DNA from: a virus
Virus record (IMG/VR): IMGVR_UViG_3300025087_000196
Span: 1-38,686 of that record
DNA: 38,686 nucleotides
Reading direction: 5' to 3' (one strand)
Below are positions 10,408 to 38,686 of this stretch, in pieces (positions within the stretch are counted from its first letter, which is position 1; every line of letters begins with the position of its first letter). The notes beneath the pieces were generated by a model. It did not search any database and was not told the origin of the DNA. It saw nothing but the letters and a program-made list of their open reading frames with translations. The position numbers and the translations under genes were made by a program.

Positions 10408-11506
10408 ATGGCAACTACAACTGCTGCTGATTTGGCTGCTGGGTCTAGGGCCATGATTGGAGCAGCAAGATTTACCTATGAGCCAATTCAGGTTTTCAAA
10501 AATACCGTCAGTGTCCACCGAATGGGTAAGGATGAAAAGAGCTACTACGTGCCAAAGTTCGGAACGATTACTGCTGAAGGCTTGATTGATGGTGTGGACA
10601 TGGCTAACGCTCAGACACTAAGTATCACCGGCACAACCCACACTACCAATGAGGCGGGATGCAAGGTCATCGTTACCAAGAAACTGAGAAAACAGTTTAC
10701 CGAGGATGTAGCCCGTGCTGCCGGCAGGGTTATTGGTAACGGTATGGGCAAAAAGATGGACCAGGACGGCTTGACTCTTTACTCTGGTCTTGATAACGGC
10801 TTGAGCAATGCCAACACCGCTTTTGGACTCGGCTATGCTGCTGCCTCCTTTACCCAGTGTATAGGTCAGTCTGAACCCGCTCCTATGCCAATGTCCTATG
10901 TCCTGCATCCTCATACCCTCAATACCATCGTGGACGCTATCGCTACACCAGGGACAAGTCACATGCCAGCTAGCTATCAGGAGTCGGTACTCCAGAATCA
11001 CTTTGCTGGTATCATAAAGATGAATGGCGTACCTGTTTTCCATGATGCCAACATCTCTATTGACTCCAGCGATGATGCCTATGGTGCTCTGTACTCAAAG
11101 GAAGCCTTTATCTATGTGGTTGGCTGGGAGCCGGATACGTGGATGGTCTACGATGACTCCCTGAGAGGCTGGGAAATCGGTATCGTGGCCGACTACGCAA
11201 TGGTAGAGGAAGATGGGGGATACGGTAGACGATACTTGCCGTATTCAAATCGGGCTAAACGAGGAACCCTAAGTTCATCTGAATATGGGAATCTCGTGCT
11301 AAACAAAATGTGTAGAGACTATACACCCGACTACTGCGAAGTAGAAGAAATAGTCCGACCTTGCAGGAAACTGCAAGAGACTGGCAGAAATGACCAGTCC
11401 TCTCTAAAGAGAAGTAACAAGAATGAGGTATCTCTTATTCGATGCTACGGCACCAACCAGTTAGAGGATGGTGAAATAATATGGGCTTCGTAAGGCGGTT
11501 GACTAA
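10408..11506 (+). CDS. Major capsid protein, interrupted by a group I intron (exons 10408-11226 and 11486-11506)
   Basis: Exon 1 encodes 273 residues ending GGYG. After removal of the predicted intron the 21-nt exon 2 adds LRKAVD and a stop, giving 279 residues. The protein has an HK97-fold coat pattern: an N-terminal arm with YEPIQVFKNTVSVHRMGKDE, a TITAEGLIDGVDM segment, the helix TKKLRKQFTEDVARAAGR and the C-terminal domain AFIYVVGWEPDTWMVYDDS followed by WEIGIVADYAMVEEDGGYG. It follows the scaffold with AGGAGG at the start. Without splicing the frame runs on through the intron to a stop at 11491-11493, giving a 361-residue form with an unrelated tail. The spliced frame is preferred because it gives a natural coat C-terminus and coincides exactly with P1 pairing. 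Capsid identity is inferred from fold pattern and position. Confidence 0.8.
11227..11485 (+). ncRNA. Group I self-splicing intron (259 nt) in the capsid gene
   Basis: P1: exon end AUACGGU (11220-11226) pairs with GCCGUAU (11238-11244), placing a U.G wobble exactly at the 5' splice site. P3: UCGGG pairs with CCCGA. P4: ACGAG pairs with CUCGU, enclosing a UUCA/UGAA hairpin. P7: GACUAU in AGAGACUAU pairs with AUAGUC in AAAUAGUCC, the conserved R and S elements. P8: CUAC-UGCGAA-GUAG. P9: CUUGCAG-GAAA-CUGCAAG, a perfect stem with a GNRA tetraloop. A further hairpin GACUGG/CCAGUC follows. The intron ends in G (11485). A short P10 (ACGA 11229-11232 with UCGU 11488-11491) is possible. The intron has no ORF of its own. 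Confidence 0.88.
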
Positions 11507-11545: not shown

Positions 11546-12085
11546 ATGGATGCTAAATGTCAACTTTGTGGTGGAATCTTTGAGGCTAAGAGGTCTGATG
11601 CAAAGTTTTGCTCGAAATGTCGCCCAATCAAACATCGGGAATATGGGCGAAAAACAGATGCAAAAAGACGGTTCGTTGGCAACTGCATTGATTGCGGTAA
11701 GCCAGTTGGCAGAGGTTCATTGCAAGGGCAAGGTAGATGTCTATCCTGTCGCTTCAAGCGTGAACGCAACAATTTCTGGAAAGGTGGTAGATATAAAGGC
11801 TTTCATGGGTATGTCTATATTTACATGCCAGAACATCCGAGAGCAGATAAATACCATCACCGATATGTTGCGGAGCATGTCTTGGTCTGGGAGCAAGCAC
11901 ATGGTCAGCCACTTCCAGAGGGGTATCTTATTCATCACCTTAATGGCATCAAGGACGATAACCGCCCTGAAAATCTCGTTGCCTTACTACCTAAAGACCA
12001 TTCAACTGGAACACTACGAGAACTTCTACAAAAGCGTATCCGAGAACTGGAATCACAACTCGTTGCAATGAGTGAAAACTCATAA
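11546..12085 (+). CDS. HNH homing-type endonuclease with two zinc modules, downstream of the intron
   Basis: A 179-residue protein with its own AGGAGG site. Residues 4-25 (CQLCG...FCSKC) and about 48-70 (CIDCG...CLSC) are CX2C pairs forming zinc fingers. The C-terminal half has the HNH core: HRYVAEHVLVWEQAHG, then GYLIHHLNGIKDDNRPENL, where the HH is the catalytic/metal pair and N the central residue. The last ~30 residues form a helix. It begins 39 bases after the capsid stop, outside the predicted intron, so it is free-standing. Its position suggests it cuts intron-less capsid alleles and spreads the intron together with itself (collaborative homing). This is inference from arrangement. Confidence 0.85.
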   Translation: MDAKCQLCGGIFEAKRSDAKFCSKCRPIKHREYGRKTDAKRRFVGNCIDCGKPVGRGSLQGQGRCLSCRFKRERNNFWKGGRYKGFHGYVYIYMPEHPRADKYHHRYVAEHVLVWEQAHGQPLPEGYLIHHLNGIKDDNRPENLVALLPKDHSTGTLRELLQKRIRELESQLVAMSENS

Positions 12086-12695: not shown

Positions 12696-13454
12696 ATGAG
12701 TTTCCCATATTTAGCAGCTTTATCCTACGCAGCAGTTATCAATGAGTATGCTGCGACAAGAGCACTCCATGTTGGCGCCAAAGGCATGGTCGAGAATGGT
12801 AGCCTGTATCGTCTCTGTAAGGCGGGGGCAGCCATCACGAACCCACTGGCAGCTAAAATCAATCGCTACACATACCTTGAGGGAGTAACAGGCGATGTGG
12901 CCGAGACTACGGCTACAGCAATCGCAGTCGGCGATACCACCGTGGTCATCACCGATGCCACTAACGCAAGGGCGAAGGACTACTGGCAGGACGGCTATCT
13001 GGCAATACCCAATTCTGGCACCTATGACGTATTCCATCATATATGGAAGAGTGATGCTGAAATCAGTAATACCTACAAACTCTACGTCACAGAGCCATTC
13101 ATCTATGCCTACGCTGCTGGTGGTACTCTGGCAGCCTACCCGAATCCCTGGAGGAATATCAGGAACGCCGGAGCTTACTCGCAGGGGTTTGAGCATTTCG
13201 CTTGCTGTATTGAAAGACCAATCACTTCGGCTTACTACTTCTGGGGCAAGGTGCAAGGGCCACACTGGGCATGGGTAAACAGCACATGGCCTGGTGCTGC
13301 AGCGAGAGATAGAGATGTAATCTTCCATATTGACGGCACTATCCGTATGGCTGATGAAGGCATCAACACAGATGCTCAGTCCAACCAAAGAGCCGGCTAC
13401 CTGATGTACTCCGGCAACTACGGCGATGCCATGATAATGCTTCAGATAGAATAA
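12696..13454 (+). CDS. Virion protein, possible capsid decoration or head fibre
   Basis: A 252-residue beta-rich protein with AGGAGG upstream. The N-terminal part (GSLYRLCKAGAAITNPLAAK) resembles the short segment found in many head-decoration proteins. The middle has repeated Thr/Val/Ala beta strands (TATAIAVGDTTVVITDATNA), and the C-terminal part is rich in Trp, Tyr and Gly (YYFWGKVQGPHWAWVNSTW). No membrane segment or enzyme motif. The gene is the second after the capsid and is probably part of the head surface. The assignment is from context. Confidence 0.6.
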   Translation: MSFPYLAALSYAAVINEYAATRALHVGAKGMVENGSLYRLCKAGAAITNPLAAKINRYTYLEGVTGDVAETTATAIAVGDTTVVITDATNARAKDYWQDGYLAIPNSGTYDVFHHIWKSDAEISNTYKLYVTEPFIYAYAAGGTLAAYPNPWRNIRNAGAYSQGFEHFACCIERPITSAYYFWGKVQGPHWAWVNSTWPGAAARDRDVIFHIDGTIRMADEGINTDAQSNQRAGYLMYSGNYGDAMIMLQIE

Positions 13455-13465
13455 GGAGGTAGAAG

Positions 13466-13579
13466 ATGGCTAAAAAGATTTGTCCTATTTGTCAGGAACA
13501 CGTGGAACAAAAGACAGAAGGGCTAACAGTATGCACCAAGTGCGGGCATCCGTTTAGACCTTCTGACGCTAACGAATAG
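13466..13579 (+). CDS. 37-residue zinc ribbon protein
   Basis: ATG 13466 with AAGGAGG seven bases upstream. The product MAKKICPICQEHVEQ...CTKCGHPF has two CX2C knuckles separated by about 15 residues, a minimal zinc ribbon. It lies just before a strong hairpin at 13588-13613. Role unknown. Confidence 0.75.
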   Translation: MAKKICPICQEHVEQKTEGLTVCTKCGHPFRPSDANE

Positions 13580-13587
13580 GAGGAGTA

Positions 13588-13613
13588 GAGGGAGGGGGTA
13601 ATTCCCCTCCCTC
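13588..13613 (+). terminator. Strong GC-rich hairpin, possible terminator or processing site
   Basis: GAGGGAGGGG (13588-13597) pairs perfectly with CCCCTCCCTC (13604-13613) around a six-base loop. No T-run follows, so it is not a classic intrinsic terminator. It may attenuate transcription or protect mRNA ends between the capsid group and the following genes. Confidence 0.5.
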
Positions 13614-13623
13614 CGTCCAAACA

Positions 13624-13854
13624 GTGAGAAAAGGCTTTTATTTTGGATTCCAGTTTAGCTTTTTTAGAGATAGGCAAGGATTAAAAATTGCCTATAAAGT
13701 AAGGATATTTCGCTTTCATCGTGAAAGAACATGGATTATAAAAAAGAATCCAGAATGGGGCAAAGGCAATTCAGAATTGACTCCAAAGTTGCCCTATCCA
13801 GAGATGTTGGCGAAAGTCCATAGGGGGAAACCACTACAACCAGAGGACATATAA
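13624..13854 (+). CDS. Hypothetical protein, 76 residues
   Basis: Read from GTG 13624, only ten bases after the hairpin and without a visible Shine-Dalgarno site, so the start is uncertain. The N-terminus is aromatic and basic (RKGFYFGFQFSFFRDRQG) and the C-terminus is Pro/Glu-rich (YPEMLAKVHRGKPLQPEDI). The stop is two bases before the next ATG, which supports translation. Function not recognised. Confidence 0.5.
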   Translation: MRKGFYFGFQFSFFRDRQGLKIAYKVRIFRFHRERTWIIKKNPEWGKGNSELTPKLPYPEMLAKVHRGKPLQPEDI

Positions 13855-13855
13855 C

Positions 13856-14149
13856 ATGCCGATTTACGAGTACAGATGTCCTAAATGCGGTAGTCTTTAC
13901 GAAATCAGAAGGGTATCCTTTGACCAAACTGAGGAGATAAACTGTCTTCTGTGTTCCACATTGTGCAAGAGAGTTCTTTCAAAGATTGGCTTCTTCAGGA
14001 TTCATCACACTGAGAAATTGGATTATAACGACCCACTTCGGGTTTACGATAGACAAAAGATGGTGCAGGATTCTGCTGTCAAAAAGGCAGTAAAGGAATA
14101 TGCGGATGAACAAAGAGAGTTACCAAACTCTCCATTTAAAGGGAGGTGA
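13856..14149 (+). CDS. FmdB-type zinc ribbon protein
   Basis: A 97-residue protein beginning MPIYEYRCPKCGSLYEI, the typical opening of FmdB/CxxC_CxxC regulatory proteins. The second knuckle is CLLCSTLCKRVLS. The C-terminal 50 residues are charged and helical. A second gene of the same type is at 18105. In phages these are small zinc proteins of unknown role, perhaps transcription factors or virion assembly aids. Confidence 0.8.
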   Translation: MPIYEYRCPKCGSLYEIRRVSFDQTEEINCLLCSTLCKRVLSKIGFFRIHHTEKLDYNDPLRVYDRQKMVQDSAVKKAVKEYADEQRELPNSPFKGR

Positions 14150-23359: not shown

Positions 23360-23566
23360 ATGGAAATAGATATGGACGCCGAATCAGAAAAGGTCAAGCA
23401 GGAAATAAACAGAATATCTCAACAACTGGCTATCCTTGACCAGCAGATAGCGGCTTTCCAGGCGCAGAGACAAGCACTTTTCAACAATGGATTGAAGAAA
23501 TCCGGGGAACTGGATTTACTACAGAGACTAGGCAAAGAGGAATTGAAAAAGGAAGTTCCTCCCTAG
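23360..23566 (+). CDS. Small coiled-coil protein
   Basis: 68 residues with AAGGAGG upstream. Residues 8-45 (ESEKVKQEINRISQQLAILD, then QQIAAFQAQRQALF) are a coiled coil. Its stop overlaps by four bases the stop of the convergent gene at 23563, leaving no room for a terminator between the two blocks. Confidence 0.65.
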   Translation: MEIDMDAESEKVKQEINRISQQLAILDQQIAAFQAQRQALFNNGLKKSGELDLLQRLGKEELKKEVPP

Positions 23567-23934
23567 TTATTTTCTGCTTTGTTCATACCGCCAAAAGGTA
23601 GATTTCTAGGGCCAGGGAGAACAATGTTCGGTTTCTTGATTAGCTGTTCCTCAGTAATGGATGTCACATAAATTGTGCCACAAGGCTTTGTCGGGTAGCC
23701 CATACAAATATCTGTAGTTATACGGTAAGCTGGCAAGTTAGTTCCCATTGGCAATCTAGTTTCCAATCCCTTGTCTATACAAGCGCCATCAATGACTTGG
23801 AGGCAAAAGGTTAATTCCTTCCTCATGTGCCCCCTCGCCTTCTCCTGATTCCCAAGAGATTCACAGTAGCGTTCCTTTGAGCCACAAACAGGGCACTTAC
23901 CAAATAAAATTACCTTTGGTTGTTCATTAGTCAT
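23563..23934 (-). CDS. Zinc-finger protein, 123 residues
   Basis: The N-terminus FGKCPVCGSKERYC is a zinc knuckle, and CMGYPTKPCG gives further Cys in the middle. No known enzyme motif. Last gene of the leftward early operon, coupled to the preceding membrane peptide by overlapping ATGACTAA. Confidence 0.6.
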   Translation of the reverse strand: MTNEQPKVILFGKCPVCGSKERYCESLGNQEKARGHMRKELTFCLQVIDGACIDKGLETRLPMGTNLPAYRITTDICMGYPTKPCGTIYVTSITEEQLIKKPNIVLPGPRNLPFGGMNKAENN

Positions 23935-24064
23935 TAGACTTTCCTTTCTTTGTTTTCTTCGCTTTCCAATCTTCCCAGATAACCTCTACAAGTGCTACCA
24001 GAATCCCCAGGATGGCTACTAAGGCCAACCCAGCCAGTATGTAATAGAATTCCTTAAAGCTCAT
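23927..24064 (-). CDS. 45-residue membrane protein
   Basis: ATG at 24064-24062 overlaps the preceding stop by one base. The product MSFKEFYYILAGLALVAILG continues as a single membrane helix, then EDWKAKKTKKGKSND, a basic cytoplasmic tail. Its stop overlaps the next start. Role unknown. Confidence 0.65.
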   Translation of the reverse strand: MSFKEFYYILAGLALVAILGILVALVEVIWEDWKAKKTKKGKSND

Positions 24065-24249
24065 TATTCTGCCTCCTCAATTCGCTTCCCGCAGTTTCTA
24101 CAGTAGTAGTCATTTTTACTGATTTCCTCTCCACAGTAAGGACATCTTGGGTCGCTAATTTGCGGTATCAACACAGTCCCGCAAGTATGGCAGAAATTAC
24201 CGAAGGTGGAAATATCGCATTGGGGACATAACTTAGCTTCTGTGTCCAC
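24064..24249 (-). CDS. Double zinc ribbon protein
   Basis: 61 residues with four CX2C pairs: CPQC, CHTC, CPYC and CRNC. This is the double zinc ribbon (DZANK-like) layout, a common protein- or nucleic-acid-binding module. Downstream of the VRR-NUC gene. Confidence 0.8.
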   Translation of the reverse strand: MDTEAKLCPQCDISTFGNFCHTCGTVLIPQISDPRCPYCGEEISKNDYYCRNCGKRIEEAE

Positions 24250-24283
24250 TTCTCTTAGCCCTCCCTTTCGGCTCTGGACTATA

Positions 24284-24772
24284 CTACCTCAAAATTGCCC
24301 TTACTCTTTCAAAATCAGAGGGGCGGAAAAGATATACCTCTGGCAGATAAATCTCATCGCCATTTTCATCTACGTCTACGAAAATCTGGCAGTCTTTCAA
24401 TAACCTGAACCATTCCTCTTGCTCAGGTGTCATTTGCTTCTTCTCGTCTTTAAGTTCAAAAAAAAGTAAACGCCCGCCCCTGGTTGCGGTGTAATCCAAG
24501 TAACCTTTGTCCCCTGAGTAAGCAGTCTCATAAATCTCTTTCTTTTGGATATTACCGAATCTATCTTTAACTCGCCGTAATACCCTAGCTGGTCTATCGT
24601 GTTTCCACCGCCAGCCGTATAGATTCAAAAAATATTCAACCTGCGAGGCGAAGGCAGTCTCAGTTATTTTTAAGGGGTTAATCTTCCGTTGGCGAGGATT
24701 GCTCACCTTCTTTTCAGGAATCGTATCGGCTAGTTCAGGATTAAGTTTCAGGATGTCAGCACTGTAGGTCAT
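24284..24772 (-). CDS. VRR-NUC type nuclease
   Basis: 162 residues. The motifs fit the VRR-NUC/Holliday-junction-nuclease fold: Glu46 in QVEYFLNLYGW, Asp93 in GDKGYLDY, and Glu106-x-Lys108 in LLFFELKDEKKQ. Such nucleases cut branched or flapped DNA during phage recombination and packaging. It starts at ATG 24772 with GGAG upstream and overlaps the preceding stop (ATGA). Two other VRR-NUC-like genes are in this genome (31206 and 36374). Confidence 0.8.
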   Translation of the reverse strand: MTYSADILKLNPELADTIPEKKVSNPRQRKINPLKITETAFASQVEYFLNLYGWRWKHDRPARVLRRVKDRFGNIQKKEIYETAYSGDKGYLDYTATRGGRLLFFELKDEKKQMTPEQEEWFRLLKDCQIFVDVDENGDEIYLPEVYLFRPSDFERVRAILR

Positions 24773-24930
24773 TCCTTCTCCAATTTTGCTATTGCTTTCT
24801 TTGCACTCTCTTTATTTATAAACAACACGATTGAATCTGGTGGCAAGTCACTAGGTAGCACAAGCACACATTCACCATCAGCATTTATGATAGTCTGACC
24901 TACCGCTTTTATCTCCAGCAAAAAGCGCAT
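24769..24930 (-). CDS. Small protein, 53 residues (start uncertain)
   Basis: Read from ATG 24930. The product MRFLLEIKAVGQTIINADGE continues with VLVLPSDLPPDSIVLFINKE and a Lys-rich end. The same frame is open upstream for about 25 codons with a hydrophobic helix (HIRILLAIWLLAR), so a non-ATG start further up is possible and would add a membrane segment. The stop overlaps the VRR-NUC start. Confidence 0.55.
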   Translation of the reverse strand: MRFLLEIKAVGQTIINADGECVLVLPSDLPPDSIVLFINKESAKKAIAKLEKE

Positions 24931-24991
24931 CCTAGCCAATAACCAGATTGCCAGTAATATGCGGATGTGCTGTTTATCAATATAAGGGTAA

Positions 24992-25441
24992 TCATTTACT
25001 TACCCCCAGTATTACCTTTCTCCAGACTCCAGTTGCATCACCTTTGAGCATATCTTCTTGAGCTTGTTTTTTGTAAAGACCCGCATATTCTCCGACTGGT
25101 GGTAAGTCTTGATTATCAGACAGCTTCACATAGCCCATTTCGTTTGCCATTTTAGGGAACTGCTCATTTATCTGTTTCGTGATTTCTTCGGGCGACTTCC
25201 AGCCCTTTTCCTTAGCCCACTCTTCAAACTTAGACTGCAACCTGATGCTAAAAGTATTATCGTTTGTCTTCAACATAAGATTGATAGCGTCATCAAACCC
25301 TCTACACTCAGCCTCCTCAAAAAGACCGGAGTCTTTAATGAGGCAAATAATGGAATCCGCAGTAGTAAGCTGTTCAAAAGGAATCAACTTGGCTACCCTT
25401 TCTCTTACTTCCTTCCCTTTGTCTGTTAGCTCATTTAGCAT
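24992..25441 (-). CDS. Hypothetical protein, 149 residues
   Basis: ATG 25441 with GGGAGGTGA upstream. It opens MLNELTD, the same leader seen in neighbouring genes. The rest is helical and charged (KGKEVRERVAKLIPFEQL, EEWAKEKGWKSPEEITKQI). No known motif. Confidence 0.65.
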   Translation of the reverse strand: MLNELTDKGKEVRERVAKLIPFEQLTTADSIICLIKDSGLFEEAECRGFDDAINLMLKTNDNTFSIRLQSKFEEWAKEKGWKSPEEITKQINEQFPKMANEMGYVKLSDNQDLPPVGEYAGLYKKQAQEDMLKGDATGVWRKVILGVSK

Positions 25442-25457
25442 TGTATCACCTCCCTAA

Positions 25458-25580
25458 CTAAATACTAAGCAGTATCCAGCACTTTTGACATTTCAAAAAT
25501 AAAGCTGTAGATGAATACTTGGCAACTTGATTTCTCATTGACAGAAATGCCCCGCACTTAGGGCAACGTAACTTTGCCAT
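25458..25580 (-). CDS. 40-residue zinc ribbon protein
   Basis: ATG at 25580 with AGGAGG upstream, stop at 25458. The product MAKLRCPKCGAFLSMRNQ ends with CQKCWILLSI, so two CX2C knuckles. Too short for most gene finders but with a clear ribosome site. Confidence 0.7.
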   Translation of the reverse strand: MAKLRCPKCGAFLSMRNQVAKYSSTALFLKCQKCWILLSI

Positions 25581-25613
25581 CTTTCTCCTCCTTTCTTCTC
25601 TATGTCAGTCAGT

Positions 25614-25955
25614 TCATTTAGCATTGTGAGTCTCCCAGATTGCCCAGAATAGAGAGTTGGCATCTAGTTTATTTACACTAAGGATAAGCCATCTCTTAAG
25701 CAGAAAAAGTAAGCTCTCATACTCATCCATTTCTGGCTGCCTTTTCATAAATTCTTTCAGCCAACAGGGCACAGCATACTTAAAAAGGTTATTGAGGTCT
25801 AACAACCCAGTAAGTTCCGCATAATAGAAGCTGTCTATAATCCAGTAGGGGGCTTCTGGTCTATGGCAGGTTGGGCAAGGCTCGGGGTCTGTATACTTTG
25901 CTCCGCACCATTCCCAGAACTCTTTTAGCTGTTCCTGTGTTAGCTTATTTAGCAT
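25614..25955 (-). CDS. Paralogous early protein A (NLFKYAVP family), 113 residues
   Basis: It opens MLNKLTQEQLKEFWEWCG and has CPTCHRPEAPYW as a zinc knuckle. LDLNNLFKYAVPCWLKEF and SLFWAIWETH are shared with the gene at 26155, so the two are diverged duplicates. Ribosome site GGAGG nine bases upstream. I do not recognise a function. Confidence 0.7.
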   Translation of the reverse strand: MLNKLTQEQLKEFWEWCGAKYTDPEPCPTCHRPEAPYWIIDSFYYAELTGLLDLNNLFKYAVPCWLKEFMKRQPEMDEYESLLFLLKRWLILSVNKLDANSLFWAIWETHNAK

Positions 25956-25991
25956 GATTCATTTCCTCCTTCCTTCTCTATGTCAGTCAGT

Positions 25992-26171
25992 TTATTTGGC
26001 ATTGCGAACCTCCGAAAATAGTAATTTGACTCCAGAAATAATCTGGTGTAAGAAAAGTTTTATTCCTCTCTTTCTGCTAAAAGGATGATGTACAAGGTCA
26101 AGGTAGAAAGCACTACAGCCTCTACCTTTGCTGTCAAAGTGAATACCATTAGTCTTAAATAGGATTGCCAT
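25992..26171 (-). CDS. Hypothetical protein, 59 residues
   Basis: ATG at 26171 lies inside the end of gene 26155 and the stop (25992-25994) lies at the repeated MxNxLTD leader. The product MAILFKTNGIHFDSKGRGCS continues with FYLDLVHHPFSRKRG. The overlap suggests coupling. Function unknown. Confidence 0.55.
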   Translation of the reverse strand: MAILFKTNGIHFDSKGRGCSAFYLDLVHHPFSRKRGIKLFLHQIISGVKLLFSEVRNAK

Positions 26172-26604
26172 GAATCACCTCCCAGATTGCCCAGGATAGA
26201 GCACTCTCAAGTTTAAGTGCGGTTCCTGTTCTAAGGAAATCCCCTTTGTTTATTACCACCATTGTCTCATCCTTCCTAATTCTGATGTCAATTTTATATC
26301 CTTCTTGGAGTAGTTTTGGCACAGCATACTTAAATAAATTGTTAAGGTCTGTAGGTAGCTCCTTAAATCGCTTCCCGTCTGGTGCTCGCCAATATCCAGA
26401 AGCAACATAAAATTGAAACCCACACTCTTGCAATAGAGATATAAGTTGCTCCTGTGTTAGTTTATTAGTATTGTGAACCTCCTGACAATCAACTAACCAA
26501 ATCCAGTCTTCACATAAGGGGCATTGGACACGAATCCGAGAATCGTATAGATTACTCGCATCAAAAACACCCTTGCAATGAGGACAGATAACAATCTTCT
26601 TCAC
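26155..26604 (-). CDS. Paralogous early protein B with N-terminal zinc ribbon, 149 residues
   Basis: GTG start at 26604 with GGAGG eight bases upstream. Residues 8-35 form a zinc ribbon (CPHCKGVF ... CPLCEDW). From about 45 it carries NKLTQEQLISLLQECG, then DLNNLFKYAVPKLLQEG and ALSWAIWEVIHG, matching gene 25614. So the duplicated domain is fused here to a zinc module. Confidence 0.7.
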   Translation of the reverse strand: MKKIVICPHCKGVFDASNLYDSRIRVQCPLCEDWIWLVDCQEVHNTNKLTQEQLISLLQECGFQFYVASGYWRAPDGKRFKELPTDLNNLFKYAVPKLLQEGYKIDIRIRKDETMVVINKGDFLRTGTALKLESALSWAIWEVIHGNPI

Positions 26605-26805
26605 TTACTTCCCCTCCAGTCCATTCTCCTTGAGAAAATCCAGATAATTTTTGGTGTAAAATGTGAGCGCACATCTGCTATGATTCATGCTATTATCAAA
26701 ACTGTTACTCTTTACCCAATCTGCTACTTTCTGCATACCTGCTTTGTAGCCTGCATCAAAACCCTTCTCATATTCTGTTACTTGATGTGTTGATTCTATT
26801 GCCAT
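26605..26805 (-). CDS. Hypothetical protein, 66 residues
   Basis: The frame is open further upstream, but ATG 26805 has GGGAGGAGAAAG directly before it and is preferred. The product MAIESTHQVTEYEKGFDAGY continues with a helix containing KAGMQKVADWVKSNSF. Its stop is followed at once by the GTG of gene 26155. Confidence 0.6.
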   Translation of the reverse strand: MAIESTHQVTEYEKGFDAGYKAGMQKVADWVKSNSFDNSMNHSRCALTFYTKNYLDFLKENGLEGK

Positions 26806-26839
26806 CTTTCTCCTCCCTTTTACTGGCTCTTGACGAGGG

Positions 26840-27241
26840 CTAAATTCTCCTATGTTTTTCGGAATGATGTTTCTGACATAGCCATACAACTTCTAATGGT
26901 TTTGTATAATCCGGATGGTGAGCAGAGGAATTATTCTCACCGCACAATATACAAGGTTCTTTTTTTATTATTCCTTTAATTATCAATCGCTTAATCATTT
27001 GATGCGCTCTAACTCGCTCTTTATATTGTCGCTGGTATTCTCTATAATGTCTCTTCCCATTTTCACTATGTAGCCATCGCTTACTTTTTTCTATGCGCTC
27101 AGGTCTTTTATCTCTTTTACGCCAATATTCTCTTATACAAGCCTTGCAAGTATATCCGTAGCCCAATGGCTTAGTTCTATTTCTACCGAACTCTTCTAAT
27201 GGTTTTTCTTGTTGGCATTTATTACACCATCTTGTATTCAT
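26840..27241 (-). CDS. HNH endonuclease, 133 residues, probably leaderless
   Basis: The N-terminus has a CX2C...CX2C finger (CNKC, CKAC), a basic middle (KRDKRPERIEKSKRW) and the HNH core CILCGENNSSAHHPDYTKPL, then VVWLCQKHHSEKH. A -10 box lies exactly six bases before the ATG and no Shine-Dalgarno site is present. The gene follows the structured RNA region at 27281-27757. Probably a free-standing mobile nuclease. Its target may be near its own insertion site. Confidence 0.8.
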   Translation of the reverse strand: MNTRWCNKCQQEKPLEEFGRNRTKPLGYGYTCKACIREYWRKRDKRPERIEKSKRWLHSENGKRHYREYQRQYKERVRAHQMIKRLIIKGIIKKEPCILCGENNSSAHHPDYTKPLEVVWLCQKHHSEKHRRI

Positions 27242-27247
27242 ACTAAT

Positions 27248-27276
27248 AAGATAACACTTTTTAGCCTTTTAGTCAA
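27248..27276 (-). promoter_or_regulatory. Promoter for the HNH gene
   Basis: On the minus strand TTGACT (27276-27271) and TATCTT (27253-27248) are 17 bases apart, and the ATG at 27241 starts six bases after the -10 box, so the predicted transcript begins at or next to the start codon. Confidence 0.7.
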
Positions 27277-27280
27277 TACC

Positions 27281-27757
27281 CTAGCCTTATGGAAAGAGGC
27301 TCAAAGGAGGGCTGGCTTAACTTGTTTCCTCAGACCTATATTGGTCTTTTGGAACGCACACCCTCCGTGCTTGCGTGTATATGCTAAGCATACTAAACAC
27401 CCTCGCCTTGAGCTTGCCTGAGATTACTGATTGCCAAGCAGAAGCACAGCACTATCAGTTTTAGCTCAGGACTTCTCCTGCCAGCTTGATGACCTTTAGG
27501 ATGCCTCCACGCTTGTCTCTCCTAAGCCCTAATCTCACGACTTCGGGTGGCTGGCTTGTCCTCTGCCTACCGCCTTCTTTCTGTTACATCCTCACTCGGT
27601 CTTGCGTTGTAACTAACGCTTTCGGCTTTGGGCAACTTGCTGGTTCTGAGGCTAGTCCCTTGCAATCAGGCATTCAGTTGCCCATCCCTCTCTCGGATAA
27701 ACCTCCAAAGGGGTGTATTTCTTCCAGAATATCCAGCAAGTTATTCTATTGTTAATG
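27281..27757 (-). ncRNA. Candidate large structured RNA, about 460-480 nt
   Basis: No minus-strand ORF fits this stretch between the annealing protein and HNH genes. Perfect complementary segments abound on the minus strand: AACUUGCUGG (27742-27733) with CCAGCAAGUU (27643-27634); GGGCAAC (27683-27677) with GUUGCCC (27636-27630), which crosses the first as a pseudoknot; CUAGCCU (27655-27649) with AGGCUAG (27287-27281), joining the ends; a GCGUU-AACGC hairpin (27619-27604) whose loop can pair with GUAAC at 27587-27583; GCCAGC (27555-27550) with GCUGGC (27485-27480); UUAGGA with UCCUAA; ACUGAU with AUCAGU; GCUCAA (27413-27408) with UUGAGC (27304-27299), backed by GAGGG/CCCUC; and an AGACC/GGUCU hairpin. 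Class unknown; size and pseudoknots recall GOLLD or ROOL RNAs of phages. Confidence 0.65.
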
Positions 27758-27759
27758 AC

Positions 27760-28722
27760 CTATTCTTTGGCGGAAGCTATTTGTATGTATGCTTCCGCCG
27801 GCGTAACCGCTAATCCATTCCAGTCCGAGATATTTAATTCCTTCCACTGCTCGGCATAACTCAGACCAAAATCATCTCTTAAAGCATGGGCTAGTTGCTC
27901 AATCGTTTTGAGTGACTTAGTGTCTCTCTTGCCCTTCTTAACTTTATCAGGTGGTTTCCCCTCAGTCTTCTCTTCCGTAGGGCTTGCCGTTGACTTGGCG
28001 GGCTGTGATGCAGGTTCGGGAGTCTCATCAGGTTCATTGCACCATTCTTTAGTACCTTCTACGGGATGGGCGTAATTCTTCATCCGCCCACTCTTAAAGA
28101 AATTAACATCATGGACAGGGCAATAATGCGAAGACTTATCTACTGTCCTTCTTTCCTTAACCATTTCACTGACAGTCCCCTCCGTCATTTCTTCCGCCGG
28201 CGTGGGTCTATAACCAGCCAAGACCACTACCCACGCCAGTCTATTTCTGAAGGCTTTTGCCCCTGCCCTGGTCTGTGCCATAGAAGCTAACTGAAACCAG
28301 GGTACAATATCATCGCCGACTTTGAATCTCTTGCGGTTATCGCCTTCGCCTTGCCACTCATACTTAGGACGGGTATTCCAGTGTTCCTCATCCCGCATAC
28401 AGTAGGCTTCCGCTCCCCCCACATAAAGGCCGGTTCTCATATCAATCAGGTCGGCATGAGCTTTAGCACCTTTTACGCCGTCAACTTCAACTGGCACAGC
28501 ATCGCCTGTCCTTACTGTGTAGTGATAGAATTGCCCTAGAAGCTGTAGGTCTTCAAATTCTAGGTATTGCTCGCCGTTCATAATGACTGGTTTCTTTTTC
28601 TTTGAAACCACATCGGCTAATGCCCTAGCTGCTATCCTGGCTTCCTCCAAGATAACATCTGGTGGCAAGATAATTCCTACTTGCCCTTGTTGTGTTACTG
28701 TTACTCTTTGTTCTGTGGTCAT
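27760..28722 (-). CDS. Probable single-strand annealing / recombination protein
   Basis: 320 residues with AAAGGAG upstream. The central motif WFQLASMAQTRAGAKAFRNR, then LAWVVVLAGYRPTPAEEM, resembles the Erf/Rad52-like annealing proteins of phages. A zinc-like segment (HYCPVHDVNF ... EWCNEP) follows, then a Pro/Lys/Glu-rich linker (about 230-265) and a C-terminal helical domain. It would pair complementary strands during recombination-dependent replication, with the VRR-NUC nucleases as partners. The gene end carries a 9-bp inverted repeat (27769-27777 with 27791-27799). Family assignment is moderate. Confidence 0.55.
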   Translation of the reverse strand: MTTEQRVTVTQQGQVGIILPPDVILEEARIAARALADVVSKKKKPVIMNGEQYLEFEDLQLLGQFYHYTVRTGDAVPVEVDGVKGAKAHADLIDMRTGLYVGGAEAYCMRDEEHWNTRPKYEWQGEGDNRKRFKVGDDIVPWFQLASMAQTRAGAKAFRNRLAWVVVLAGYRPTPAEEMTEGTVSEMVKERRTVDKSSHYCPVHDVNFFKSGRMKNYAHPVEGTKEWCNEPDETPEPASQPAKSTASPTEEKTEGKPPDKVKKGKRDTKSLKTIEQLAHALRDDFGLSYAEQWKELNISDWNGLAVTPAEAYIQIASAKE

Positions 28723-28746
28723 CTTTTACTTCTCCTTTATTTATTC

Positions 28747-28825
28747 GGCTTGCTGGAATTACCATCCCGTTTATTGCTCTTAGACTTTCAGGCTCCTGCA
28801 ACTAGCCCTTTCATTCCAGCAAGCC
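28747..28825 (-). promoter_or_regulatory. Structured 5' leader of the annealing protein gene
   Basis: GGCTTGCTGGAAT (28747-28759) is the exact complement of ATTCCAGCAAGCC (28813-28825), so the minus-strand mRNA forms a 13-bp stem 25 bases before the ATG, enclosing about 53 nt with CAGG-AG-CCUG and UUGC/GCAA pairings. The ribosome site follows the stem. Possible translational operator or riboswitch; class not recognised. Confidence 0.6.
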
Positions 28826-28835
28826 AATCCCAGCC

Positions 28836-29018
28836 TTACTCCTTCTTTAAGGCGTTGGGTTCATCCTTTAAGAAAAATGCCGTTTTTGTTAAATCGGAAA
28901 TTGAGAAATTGAACTTTTTAGAAGAAAATGTCCAGGTATCTTCACCATCATACTCAACAGTAACCTCAATTCCTGCTTCTTCCGCTTTATGGTCAGCGCC
29001 GATAAGAATTACTTTCAT
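28836..29018 (-). CDS. Hypothetical protein, 60 residues
   Basis: The product MKVILIGADHKAEEAGIEVT continues with a small alpha/beta pattern (FNFSISDLTKTAFFLKDE). It overlaps the preceding stop by four bases. No motif recognised. Confidence 0.6.
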   Translation of the reverse strand: MKVILIGADHKAEEAGIEVTVEYDGEDTWTFSSKKFNFSISDLTKTAFFLKDEPNALKKE

Positions 29019-29251
29019 CTTTTTCCTCCTTCTAAAATTCCCTGTATTTGCTTCCTGGTGTATTTCCGCTTGGGCTTCTGGTTCAATTCCTTCATCAAGC
29101 AGTCATAGCAGAGGTCTTCCTTACCTATATCCGGGTTCGGCTTGACCTCTACGAAAATCTTGAAGCCATTAGCCTCTATGACAAGCGGTTCAGTCACCAT
29201 ATTGCGACTGAGTGGTTTGTTGCAGGTATCACAAAAAGTTTTCTTACTCAT
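29015..29251 (-). CDS. Zinc-binding protein, 78 residues
   Basis: Two Cys pairs, CDTCNKPLS near the start and CYDC near 52-55, frame a small treble-clef-like domain. The basic end RKYTRKQIQGILEGGKR may bind nucleic acid. It overlaps neighbours by a few bases on each side. Confidence 0.65.
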   Translation of the reverse strand: MSKKTFCDTCNKPLSRNMVTEPLVIEANGFKIFVEVKPNPDIGKEDLCYDCLMKELNQKPKRKYTRKQIQGILEGGKR

Positions 29252-29456
29252 TTAACCTTTCCCTCCCTCCGATGTAAGGATGATTCTCTGGTTTAACCCA
29301 TTCCTTACAGCGAGGACACCACTTTGCTGTGCCATAGCCTTCAGGTGGGTAAATCATCTTAACTTCATATTGGAATCTACCATTCAAAGCCTCATCCCGA
29401 TTAGAGGCATATTTCAATCCAGCCTTGTGGCACTTCGGGCAATAATCAATTTTCAT
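29244..29456 (-). CDS. Zinc ribbon protein, 70 residues
   Basis: CPKCHKAGLKY and WCPRCKEWVKP form a zinc ribbon separated by about 40 residues. It overlaps the next gene by eight bases. Function unknown. Confidence 0.65.
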   Translation of the reverse strand: MKIDYCPKCHKAGLKYASNRDEALNGRFQYEVKMIYPPEGYGTAKWCPRCKEWVKPENHPYIGGRERLNE

Positions 29457-29482
29457 CTAGCCTACTCCCTTAATTCTTTTCT

Positions 29483-29914
29483 CTACTTCTCAGGTGTATG
29501 GTCTTTGCTCAGAAGTTCATTCTCAAACTCGGTGATAGCTTCAGCAATGGCAAGCGCCTTATGGAGTAAACTACCTGAGAATGATTCCAAAGCGAGACTC
29601 GCTATCTTGACTGCGTTCGTGGTATAAGGGCTATAAGTCTCATCTACCGACGGGTTTCTTTCTTGTAGCTTTTCCGTCAAATTTTTAATTTCTTGTTCCA
29701 CGTTTTTATCCTCCAATCTAAATTCCCAATAACGGGTTATAGGGTGTAAGTGGGCACAACCACTTCTTTTGTCTGCCAACTTTTGTTCCACAGTCTTAAA
29801 TGTTTTGGTAAATTGAAGACTCCATTCTTTAGGATAGTAATTATCATTTCGGTATCCTATGAGGTAAAAGGTTTCTCCCTCTTTGAGGGGCACTAAGTTT
29901 GACTGTATATTCAC
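29483..29914 (-). CDS. Hypothetical protein, 143 residues
   Basis: The frame is open to an ATG at 29983, but that would overlap the upstream gene by 62 bases. GTG 29914 is preferred: it lies seven bases after the upstream stop and behind GGAAAGGAT. The product opens MNIQSNLVPLKEGETFYLIG and ends with a helix (SLLHKALAIAEAITEFENEL). No motif recognised. Confidence 0.6.
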   Translation of the reverse strand: MNIQSNLVPLKEGETFYLIGYRNDNYYPKEWSLQFTKTFKTVEQKLADKRSGCAHLHPITRYWEFRLEDKNVEQEIKNLTEKLQERNPSVDETYSPYTTNAVKIASLALESFSGSLLHKALAIAEAITEFENELLSKDHTPEK

Positions 29915-29921
29915 CGCAAGT

Positions 29922-30080
29922 TTATCCTTTCCCTTGTATTCTGGCTTCCAATTCCGGGTCCAAGATATTCTTAGACGGCTCAAAAGGCATCCCTTTTTGC
30001 CAGTGAAGCATCTGTAGAACTAGAGCCTCAGCTTTGTCTCTTTCCTCTGCCAGCTTTTTGAGTTCATTTAGATTTGACAT
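29922..30080 (-). CDS. Hypothetical helical protein, 52 residues
   Basis: ATG 30080 has AGAGGGGG upstream and is preferred over a start 27 bases earlier. The product MSNLNELKKLAEERDKAEAL continues as a helix with PFEPSKNILDPELEARIQG at the end. It overlaps the upstream gene by 17 bases. Confidence 0.6.
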   Translation of the reverse strand: MSNLNELKKLAEERDKAEALVLQMLHWQKGMPFEPSKNILDPELEARIQGKG

Positions 30081-30267
30081 TAGATACCCCCTCTCTAGTA
30101 TATCCAAGTCGCTCCAGCTTTAACAGTTGAGACTTGGCTACTCTAAAGCACAAGTCCGAATCATCAATCTCGCAACATGAGCCACTACCTTTGCCGAAGA
30201 AGTCCTCATGCAATCTAAAGAACTCTTCCTTATTAAGCATCGCCTCTTTGTCTTCTGTGGGTTTCAT
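30064..30267 (-). CDS. Hypothetical protein, 67 residues
   Basis: ATG 30267 overlaps the preceding stop (ATGA) and has AGGGGAG upstream, so the longer frame from 30288 is not needed. The product includes NKEEFFRLHEDFFGKGSGSC and SQLLKLERLGYTREG. No motif recognised. Confidence 0.6.
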   Translation of the reverse strand: MKPTEDKEAMLNKEEFFRLHEDFFGKGSGSCCEIDDSDLCFRVAKSQLLKLERLGYTREGVSNVKSK

Positions 30268-30500
30268 TTCTCCCCTTTCGCTATCCAATAGATTTCTGTG
30301 GCTAATCTTAATGCCATGTCACGGATTAACTCACTACCGTCACTGTCTTTTTTGGGGCGCCAGTACATCAATGTATCTCTAATCAGCCCTATCCTCCTGG
30401 TAGCCTCTAGTTCGGCTTCGCTCACTACAGGTAGCGTTTTCTGCCTCTTTACACGCCTTCTATTAAAGTTATATTCTTCCAATGCTGTCATTCTGCCCAT
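30264..30500 (-). CDS. Hypothetical basic protein, 78 residues
   Basis: The N-terminus ALEEYNFNRRRVKRQKTLP is very basic, followed by helices (EAELEATRRIGLIRDTLMYW; LIRDMALRLATEIYWIAKG). It may bind nucleic acid. Second gene of the leftward operon. Confidence 0.6.
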   Translation of the reverse strand: MGRMTALEEYNFNRRRVKRQKTLPVVSEAELEATRRIGLIRDTLMYWRPKKDSDGSELIRDMALRLATEIYWIAKGEK

Positions 30501-30506
30501 ATCCCT

Positions 30507-30854
30507 TTACCCTCCGTGTTCCTCAGAGCAATCACGCCCCATAGCCTCTTTGTAGTTGGATTTGTGGGCTTGGCAGACAGGGCAGATTTCAGGAGACACT
30601 TCCTTTACATTCACCCAGACAAACTCTTTGCCATCAAACATCTCTTCGTGAATGTCGGTTAGTGTAGAGATTATCCCAAGCCCCGCAGGATATGTTAGCA
30701 GATAGGACTTACCGAAGGAGTCATAGTAGACTGTGGGCATACTCCTGATTACATACCCGCCTGCTTTGAGTTCGCCTACTATTTCATACTTGCGGGCTTC
30801 CCCGAAGAAACCATCTGCATACCCTACCTTTATGATATTAGTTTCAGTTGCCAT
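30507..30854 (-). CDS. First gene of leftward early operon, 115 residues
   Basis: ATG 30854 with GGGAGGTGAAAC upstream. The product has a beta-rich first part (YEIVGELKAGGYVIRSMPTV) and a C-terminal Cys pair (CPVCQAHKSN). Being nearest the strong promoter, it is probably made first and most, as for early host-takeover proteins. Function unknown. Confidence 0.65.
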   Translation of the reverse strand: MATETNIIKVGYADGFFGEARKYEIVGELKAGGYVIRSMPTVYYDSFGKSYLLTYPAGLGIISTLTDIHEEMFDGKEFVWVNVKEVSPEICPVCQAHKSNYKEAMGRDCSEEHGG

Positions 30855-30923
30855 GTTTCACCTCCCTTCCATTACCCTGACAGACGGCGGGTAGATTGCT
30901 TTATTCCTTCTTAGGTAATTAAG

Positions 30924-30952
30924 AGTATAAACTATTTTTCTGAACTTGTCAA
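30924..30952 (-). promoter_or_regulatory. Strong sigma-70-type promoter of the leftward early operon
   Basis: On the minus strand TTGACA (30952-30947) and TATACT (30929-30924) are 17 bases apart. This near-consensus promoter drives the block from 30854 to 23563. The leader is about 63 nt and has a good ribosome site. Confidence 0.85.
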
Positions 30953-30982
30953 TACCCCACGCAATTATTTTTTACAAAGTGC

Positions 30983-31014
30983 TTGACAGGAGTAGATAAT
31001 TATGATAGTCTATC
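30983..31014 (+). promoter_or_regulatory. Rightward promoter with overlapping palindrome
   Basis: TTGACA (30983-30988) and TAGTCT (31006-31011) are 17 bases apart. GATAG-T-CTATC (31004-31014) is a palindrome over the -10 box, a likely operator. The TTG that opens the frame at 30983 is this -35 box and not a start codon. Confidence 0.65.
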
Positions 31015-33826: not shown

Positions 33827-33855
33827 TTGACAGCGTTACAATGATATGCTATTAT
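33827..33855 (+). promoter_or_regulatory. Strong promoter for the HNH gene at 33862
   Basis: TTGACA (33827-33832) and TATTAT (33850-33855) are 17 bases apart. GTG 33862 starts six bases after the -10 box. Confidence 0.8.
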
Positions 33856-33861
33856 TACGTT

Positions 33862-34263
33862 GTGGAAGTCAAAGAGTTTTTAGAGCAATTAAAGGCTAAC
33901 GGGCTTGGTCTTTATGAGGCTATGGATAAGCTAGACATTTTGGCTGCCAGACATGGCTCAGTTGGTGCTCTTTATTATCCTGTTCTTTGCGATGTCTATG
34001 CCAATTGGGAATATCGGGAAAAGCCTAAACGCAAATATAGACCTACTTCTAAATTGTCATCTGAAGAATGGCAAGTGTTACAAGCAAAATACGATTATAG
34101 ATGCTTTTATTGTGGTAAACAAGTACAGAGACTAACTAAAGACCATATCATGCCTATTGCTCAGAATGGAGTAGATACAATTGATAATATTGTGCCTGCT
34201 TGCAAACACTGTAACAGTAAAAAAGGAACGCATCTCGTTCAAGTCCAGGTGAGACTATTATGA
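33862..34263 (+). CDS. HNH endonuclease, 133 residues, probably leaderless
   Basis: The frame is open from ATG 33841, but that ATG lies inside the promoter, so GTG 33862 is chosen. The N-terminal half is helical (EVKEFLEQLKANGLGLYEAM). The C-terminal half is a classic HNH: YDYRCFYCGKQVQRLTKDHI, then NGVDTIDNIVPACKHCNSKK, with both CX2C pairs and the DH catalytic pair. It overlaps the next gene by four bases. Confidence 0.8.
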   Translation: MEVKEFLEQLKANGLGLYEAMDKLDILAARHGSVGALYYPVLCDVYANWEYREKPKRKYRPTSKLSSEEWQVLQAKYDYRCFYCGKQVQRLTKDHIMPIAQNGVDTIDNIVPACKHCNSKKGTHLVQVQVRLL

Positions 34264-38002: not shown

Positions 38003-38686
38003 GTGGTAGAAGCGATAAAAGAAGAGGCAGAGGGGGGGATAAAAGAGGTAGAGGTGAGGACGCCGAGGCCGCATTCGGAGGGGCAGGAGCGGTTTGTGCG
38101 GTGTGTAGCGAAGAGGCAGGTAAACAAAAGTGGGCGGAGATGGGGGAAGACAGTAGCGGTAAGTATAAAGGCGGGATTAGCATTTCAGGGGATATGTAAC
38201 GCATGTTTGGGGGAGGGGTGTGTGGCATGTGATAACACAGGGCGGGTAAAGCCGAAGCGGGTACTATATGCAGCGCCGACAGCGGAGCAGGTGAACAAGT
38301 TTTGGTTTGAGGTATGTTTGGCGTTTGAGGATGCCATAAAGGTTGGGGCATTAAAGAAGGATGAGACGGAGAAATATATTGAGGTTACGGGGACAGAGCA
38401 GAGGATAAAAGCGAAGACAGCATGGAATGCTAATACGCTACGGGGTGACTACGCCGATTTGTTAATACTGGAGGAGTACCAGTTAATGAACGAAGATGCG
38501 TGGCAAGAAGTAGGGCAGCCGATGTTACTGGATAATGATGGTACGGCTGTCTTTATATTTACGCCGCCGTCACTCAAGGCAGAGGGGGTAAGCAAGGCCA
38601 AGGACCCGAGGCATGCCTCGAAGTTATATAAGAAGGCAGAGGCAGATAAAACAGGTCGGTGGCAGGCGTTTCATTTTACCAGTTAT
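38003..38686 (+). CDS. terL: Terminase large subunit, N-terminal part (continues at 2-871)
   Basis: GTG 38003 is the only start codon after the in-frame stop at 37955 and has AGGGGTGAAG before it. Walker A is SGRRWGKT (43-50), a CNACLGEGCVAC zinc-like loop follows at 65-76, Walker B is LLILEE (153-158), and a coupling motif FTPPS lies near 188. The ATPase domain drives DNA into the procapsid. The first 110 codons avoid third-position pyrimidines almost completely. The gene is cut by the contig end after residue 228 and continues in frame at the left end. Confidence 0.9.
   Translation, partial: MVEAIKEEAEGGIKEVEVRTPRPHSEGQERFVRCVAKRQVNKSGRRWGKTVAVSIKAGLAFQGICNACLGEGCVACDNTGRVKPKRVLYAAPTAEQVNKFWFEVCLAFEDAIKVGALKKDETEKYIEVTGTEQRIKAKTAWNANTLRGDYADLLILEEYQLMNEDAWQEVGQPMLLDNDGTAVFIFTPPSLKAEGVSKAKDPRHASKLYKKAEADKTGRWQAFHFTSY
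38561..38686. repeat. Contig-end overlap, right copy
   Basis: Identical to 5-130. See the left copy; it joins the two parts of the terminase large subunit. Confidence 0.9.

Follow-up and report, generated by a model that had tools for sequence, protein, structure and literature searches.

A 518-nt ORF-free gap between two recombination genes

The window analyzed here, the whole stretch of 38,686 bases, is a phage genome from an IMG/VR virus record. Its large terminase gene is divided between both window ends (38003–38686, phrog_2, 9.9e-17; and 2–871, a weak terminase match), so the record appears to be a complete genome that was opened at an arbitrary position. A block of minus-strand genes extends from about 23.6 to 31 kb, and within it we identified one long stretch devoid of minus-strand ORFs, with a gene on the same strand at either side:

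27760–28722, minus strand: RecT/ssDNA-annealing-type protein, 320 aa, complete gene (assigned from its neighborhood).
27242–27759, minus strand: ORF-free stretch, a candidate noncoding or structured RNA or an intercistronic spacer (ORF scan, MFE, Rfam).
26840–27241, minus strand: endonuclease VII/HNH family nuclease, 133 aa (phrog_2340 endonuclease, 6.8e-25; phrog_1035 endonuclease VII, 4.7e-11).

The initial annotation had described this region as lacking a gene on the operon strand, and this was borne out: no minus-strand ORF of at least 40 aa is present in 518 nt, and the next largest minus-strand gap in the 7.4-kb block (23563–31000) measures 146 nt. The minus strand of the gap is purine-rich (147 A and 133 G of 477), which fits the skew of the surrounding minus-strand block. 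The same block contains a possible Holliday junction resolvase/VRR-NUC-like gene (24284–24772, minus strand; phrog_5702, 1.6e-05). Elsewhere in the genome, a canonical group I intron (11174–11377, plus strand) lies at the 3′ end of ORF 10408–11493 and is directly followed by an HNH endonuclease gene (11546–12085; phrog_20891, 4.5e-21); a further HNH endonuclease gene (33841–34263, plus strand; phrog_2118, 5.3e-19) is located in a plus-strand stretch that contains several gaps.

The flanking genes belong to a module that is compact in relatives

Relatives of the endonuclease were found in 508 phage records. They adjoin RecT-like, Erf-like or Sak4-like annealing proteins, RecE-type exonucleases and SSB genes, the usual company of a recombination module. 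We considered that the nuclease might be a homing endonuclease and gave this less weight because its relatives sit in such modules. The annealing-type gene has relatives at 24 IMG/VR loci and 9 MAG loci; the RecT-like identity of its product is suggested by the neighborhood, as the sole PHROG match above noise is unnamed. The C-terminus of the protein aligns to its end with that of a relative (locus L005), so the gene is complete and not split by an intron.

In the relatives, little separates these genes. The ORF before the endonuclease lies at a median distance of 45 nt (81 relatives), and the ORF that follows the annealing-type gene overlaps it by a median of 4 nt (22 relatives). Since neighboring ORFs abut or overlap in the relatives, the gap sets this phage apart within an otherwise tight module. 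In two endonuclease relatives (L137 and L142), apparent upstream gaps of more than 600 nt turned out to be filled by opposite-strand ORFs and gave no Rfam match. In another locus (L021), what seemed to be a 338-nt gap behind the RecT-like gene was an artefact of ORF choice and lies inside an ORF. One phage contig (L002/L004) carries an annealing-type gene 76% identical to 27760–28722 and shares no other gene in the 6 kb upstream, a pattern that points to modular exchange; this contig stops inside the annealing-type gene, just short of the position that corresponds to the gap.

The intergenic place of the gap, adjoining replication and recombination genes, could also suit a DNA element such as a replication origin or a recombination or regulatory site, and in the relative Tunturi_1 a replication initiation gene comes just after the endonuclease. 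We consider this improbable: the gap contains no DnaA box, either exact or with one mismatch, and no iterons, and its A+T content is not raised except at the gap edges.

The gap has no detectable coding origin

Two plus-strand ORFs of 70 and 89 aa, both started by TTG, overlap the gap. Neither matched Pfam or PHROG families, and the minus-strand frames of the gap, searched with stops masked against Pfam and PHROGs, gave no match. A tblastn search with 5,722 ORF products of the fetched loci returned 0 matches to the gap and, from the same set, 88 matches to the neighboring endonuclease. With no ORF and no tblastn, Pfam or PHROG match, we regard the gap as noncoding and without sign of a decayed gene, the contrary explanation that the initial annotation had raised.

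These searches bear on the possibility that the gap is the leftover of an insertion, be it a mobile element, an intron or a gene such as SSB, that has decayed beyond recognition. In several relatives, the annealing gene and the endonuclease are in fact separated by an SSB gene, and this phage has other mobile parts, namely the group I intron and the two other HNH genes. In addition, a 9-bp direct repeat, ATTCTATTG, is found at 27743–27751 and at 26793–26801, where it brackets the gap and the endonuclease together (estimated chance expectation about 0.16); one copy falls within the opening codons of the next gene, and the repeat may represent a target duplication or have arisen by chance. The absence of any tblastn match to the gap from a set that readily found the endonuclease speaks against such a leftover, as does the lack of Pfam or PHROG matches in the masked minus-strand frames and the plus-strand ORFs; a decayed SSB gene in particular was searched for by all three routes and was not found. 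An intron was likewise rejected. The gap contains no group I P3–P8 core and the upstream annealing gene is complete, and no group II domain V or D1–D4 model was detected in the gap at E ≤ 10, nor was a domain V downstream of the endonuclease at the same threshold. On balance, we consider an insertion leftover rather unlikely, although it ranks second among the readings weighed here.

Folding of the gap compared with chance

We then compared the folding of the gap with that of shuffled sequences and of the rest of the genome. The minus strand of the 518-nt gap has an MFE of -166.7 kcal/mol (z -2.78), and none of 100 shuffles was as stable; the plus strand gave z -1.78. Among 160 same-length genome segments on both strands (background mean -0.48, sd 1.33), the gap ranks eighth, and the 7 segments that fold as well or better include several that are coding. 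The strongest fold signal of the genome lies at 13448–13924 on the plus strand (z -5.2), where a small cysteine-rich ORF with a Shine–Dalgarno site is found together with a GGAGGGGGTAATTCCCCTCC hairpin, probably a terminator.

Two parts of the gap were characterized individually:

27629–27743, minus strand: 5′ part, two crossing complementarities that share one 3′ strand (helix list and shuffles).
27299–27413, minus strand: 3′ part, a long imperfect hairpin (pair probabilities 0.75–0.99).

In the 5′ part, AACTTGCTGG and CCAGCAAGTT (27733–27742 with 27634–27643) lie within an 11-bp stem (27743–27733/27643–27633; pair probability 0.94), and TGGGCAACT and AGTTGCCCA would form a crossing 9-bp stem (27684–27676/27637–27629). 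Both stems compete for 27643–27629, and their strength is within the range of the shuffles. They could represent an H-type pseudoknot, a mutually exclusive switch or chance. The 3′ hairpin, with the pairings GCUCAAGG/CUUUGAGC, GAGGGU/GCCCUC and GUUUA/UAAGC, is the best supported local fold (local z about -3.2 for 27312–27491).

The initial annotation had emphasized at least ten perfect complementary segments, two pseudoknot-type interactions and an elaborate overall fold. The segments exist, as they do in any long sequence, where at least ten short, perfectly complementary segments are always to be found. Neither their number nor their strength is exceptional: the gap has 76 helices of -10 kcal/mol or better compared with 71.3 ± 9.5 in dinucleotide shuffles, 103 of 300 shuffles reach 76, and the best single helix is equalled in 95 of 300. 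Crossing complementarity is also present, and the best H-type pseudoknot is matched in 44 of 300 shuffles and so does not rise above chance. What stands of the elaborate fold is its total energy, the only structure measure in which the gap differs, moderately, from its shuffles.

Search for known RNA families and for relatives of the gap

An Infernal search against Rfam, as proposed in the initial annotation, and a blastn search of phage records gave no match that could be distinguished from chance. Rfam returned nothing for the gap at the gathering threshold, and a cmscan of 27100–27900 at E ≤ 10 produced only a chance match to sau-59 (E 7.1), with no match to GOLLD, ROOL, OLE or HEARO. The scan works on this sequence, since it recognized the true group I intron of the window (58.8 bits, canonical core).

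By blastn, we obtained only chance matches to the gap in 50,697 phage records (E up to 10) and in 72,556 plasmids (E up to 1), and the gap sequence was absent from the contigs that carry relatives of the flanking genes. In 450 bacterial genomes of two groups, the best matches were 24–32 nt long and coding or unrelated; neither a short Caldisericota match nor the weak Anaerolineae matches showed similarity beyond that length. Three scans of IMG/VR with segments of the gap found nothing: the pattern TGTAACAGAAAGAAGG occurs at 18 loci whose flanks do not resemble the gap, either on inspection or in blastn, and queries with the translated gap frames yielded nothing that was confirmed. Because blastn and exact-pattern scans reach near relatives only and miss diverged RNAs, these results do not imply that homologues do not exist.

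Taken together, the fold and the searches bear on whether the gap encodes an autonomous large structured noncoding RNA of the GOLLD, ROOL or OLE style, of an undescribed class, that would be processed from the operon transcript and act in trans. This is consistent with its size, the absence of ORFs, the whole-fold energy that no shuffle reached, the local signal in the 3′ hairpin, the preference for the minus over the plus strand and the interruption of a conserved gene neighborhood. On the other side, shuffles match the gap in the number of helices, the best helix and the best pseudoknot, and neither blastn, pattern scans nor Rfam provided a relative. For an abundant and conserved RNA, one would expect IMG/VR to contain relatives, a point to be read with the near-relative reach of the exact-pattern scans. 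We therefore judge an autonomous RNA unlikely, and the more specific proposal of an undescribed large phage RNA class of ~480 nt, made from the recombination operon, with crossing helices and as yet no IMG/VR relatives, more unlikely still. As the claimed pairings are at chance level and no relative was found, we treat the gap as a candidate RNA, as yet unproven, rather than as an established new class.

A candidate promoter at the endonuclease start and the favored reading

No Shine–Dalgarno site precedes the endonuclease start at 27241, whereas such sites are present at the annealing-protein gene and at the two genes before it. A consensus scan placed one promoter-like site at the gap's 3′ end:

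27248–27276, minus strand: promoter-like site TTGACT-17-TATCTT with TG before the -10 element (consensus scan).

This site stops 7 nt before the endonuclease ATG and, if active, would put the start of transcription at about the ATG, which suggests a leaderless message. The scan found 8 promoter-like sites compared with 4.6 ± 2.3 in shuffles; because this count is only slightly above chance, the candidate promoter is suggestive, a lead.

The reading that we tentatively favor is that the gap is a transcribed, moderately folded noncoding intercistronic spacer that separates the annealing-protein and endonuclease genes and uncouples the two. The gap would be transcribed on the minus strand within a recombination operon. 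It would serve as a long 3′ tail, or as an intercistronic leader, and may in this way uncouple the endonuclease from the annealing-protein gene; the endonuclease, which has no ribosome-binding site, may be started separately and leaderless from the candidate promoter described above. Given the 45-nt median spacer and the 4-nt median overlap in relatives, such an uncoupling spacer would be peculiar to this phage. Its standing as the sole gap of more than 146 nt in the minus-strand block, the purine skew, the missing Shine–Dalgarno site, the promoter-like site and the z of -2.78 all count for this reading. Counting against it, and keeping our preference short of confidence, are the promoter-like sites that barely exceed chance, the seven genome segments that fold as well or better and the homologues that were not found. 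We rank the spacer as the most likely reading, followed by an insertion leftover, an autonomous RNA and, last, a DNA element.

In sum, the gap is real, unusual and noncoding, with modest folding potential. Phage genomes seldom contain long stretches free of ORFs, and some of these have proved to encode large RNAs of unexpected architecture, such as GOLLD and ROOL. A large RNA of this sort in the gap would represent a new class with a link to recombination genes. The evidence so far is the unusual gap only, and its worth is therefore that of a marked candidate for when relatives or transcripts appear.

Comparison with known systems

Like GOLLD and ROOL, to which the initial annotation had likened it, the gap is several hundred nt long, noncoding and located in phage or prophage DNA. 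The likeness is not supported beyond size and setting: the gap has no covariance-model match and no known relatives, its pairings are at shuffle level, and it sits inside a recombination operon. Nearby tRNA genes are a feature of GOLLD and ROOL, whereas no tRNA or tmRNA genes were found in the window. A further mark of the GOLLD, ROOL and OLE group is a homo-oligomeric RNA-only complex (PMC12286853).

HEARO (HNH-endonuclease-associated RNA and ORF; the omega RNA of IscB/IsrB) also consists of noncoding DNA directly adjoining an HNH-type nuclease gene. We rejected this reading, as there is no Rfam match and the neighbor of the gap is a 133-aa endonuclease VII relative (phrog_2340, phrog_1035) and not IscB/IsrB. 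Group I introns with a homing endonuclease similarly combine a structured noncoding stretch with a following HNH-type gene. However, the gap contains no group I core (RF00028) at E ≤ 10 and interrupts no gene, and the nuclease family belongs to recombination modules.

A parallel is offered by phage recombination modules composed of an exonuclease, a RecT, Erf or Sak4 annealing protein, SSB and endonuclease VII, as in Tunturiibacter phage Tunturi_1, Xanthomonas phage Kintu and Shigella phage ESh4. Although their spacer is short or filled by SSB, whereas 518 nt without a gene are found here, all three phages share with the window an annealing-type gene followed, in the same direction, by an endonuclease of the same family.
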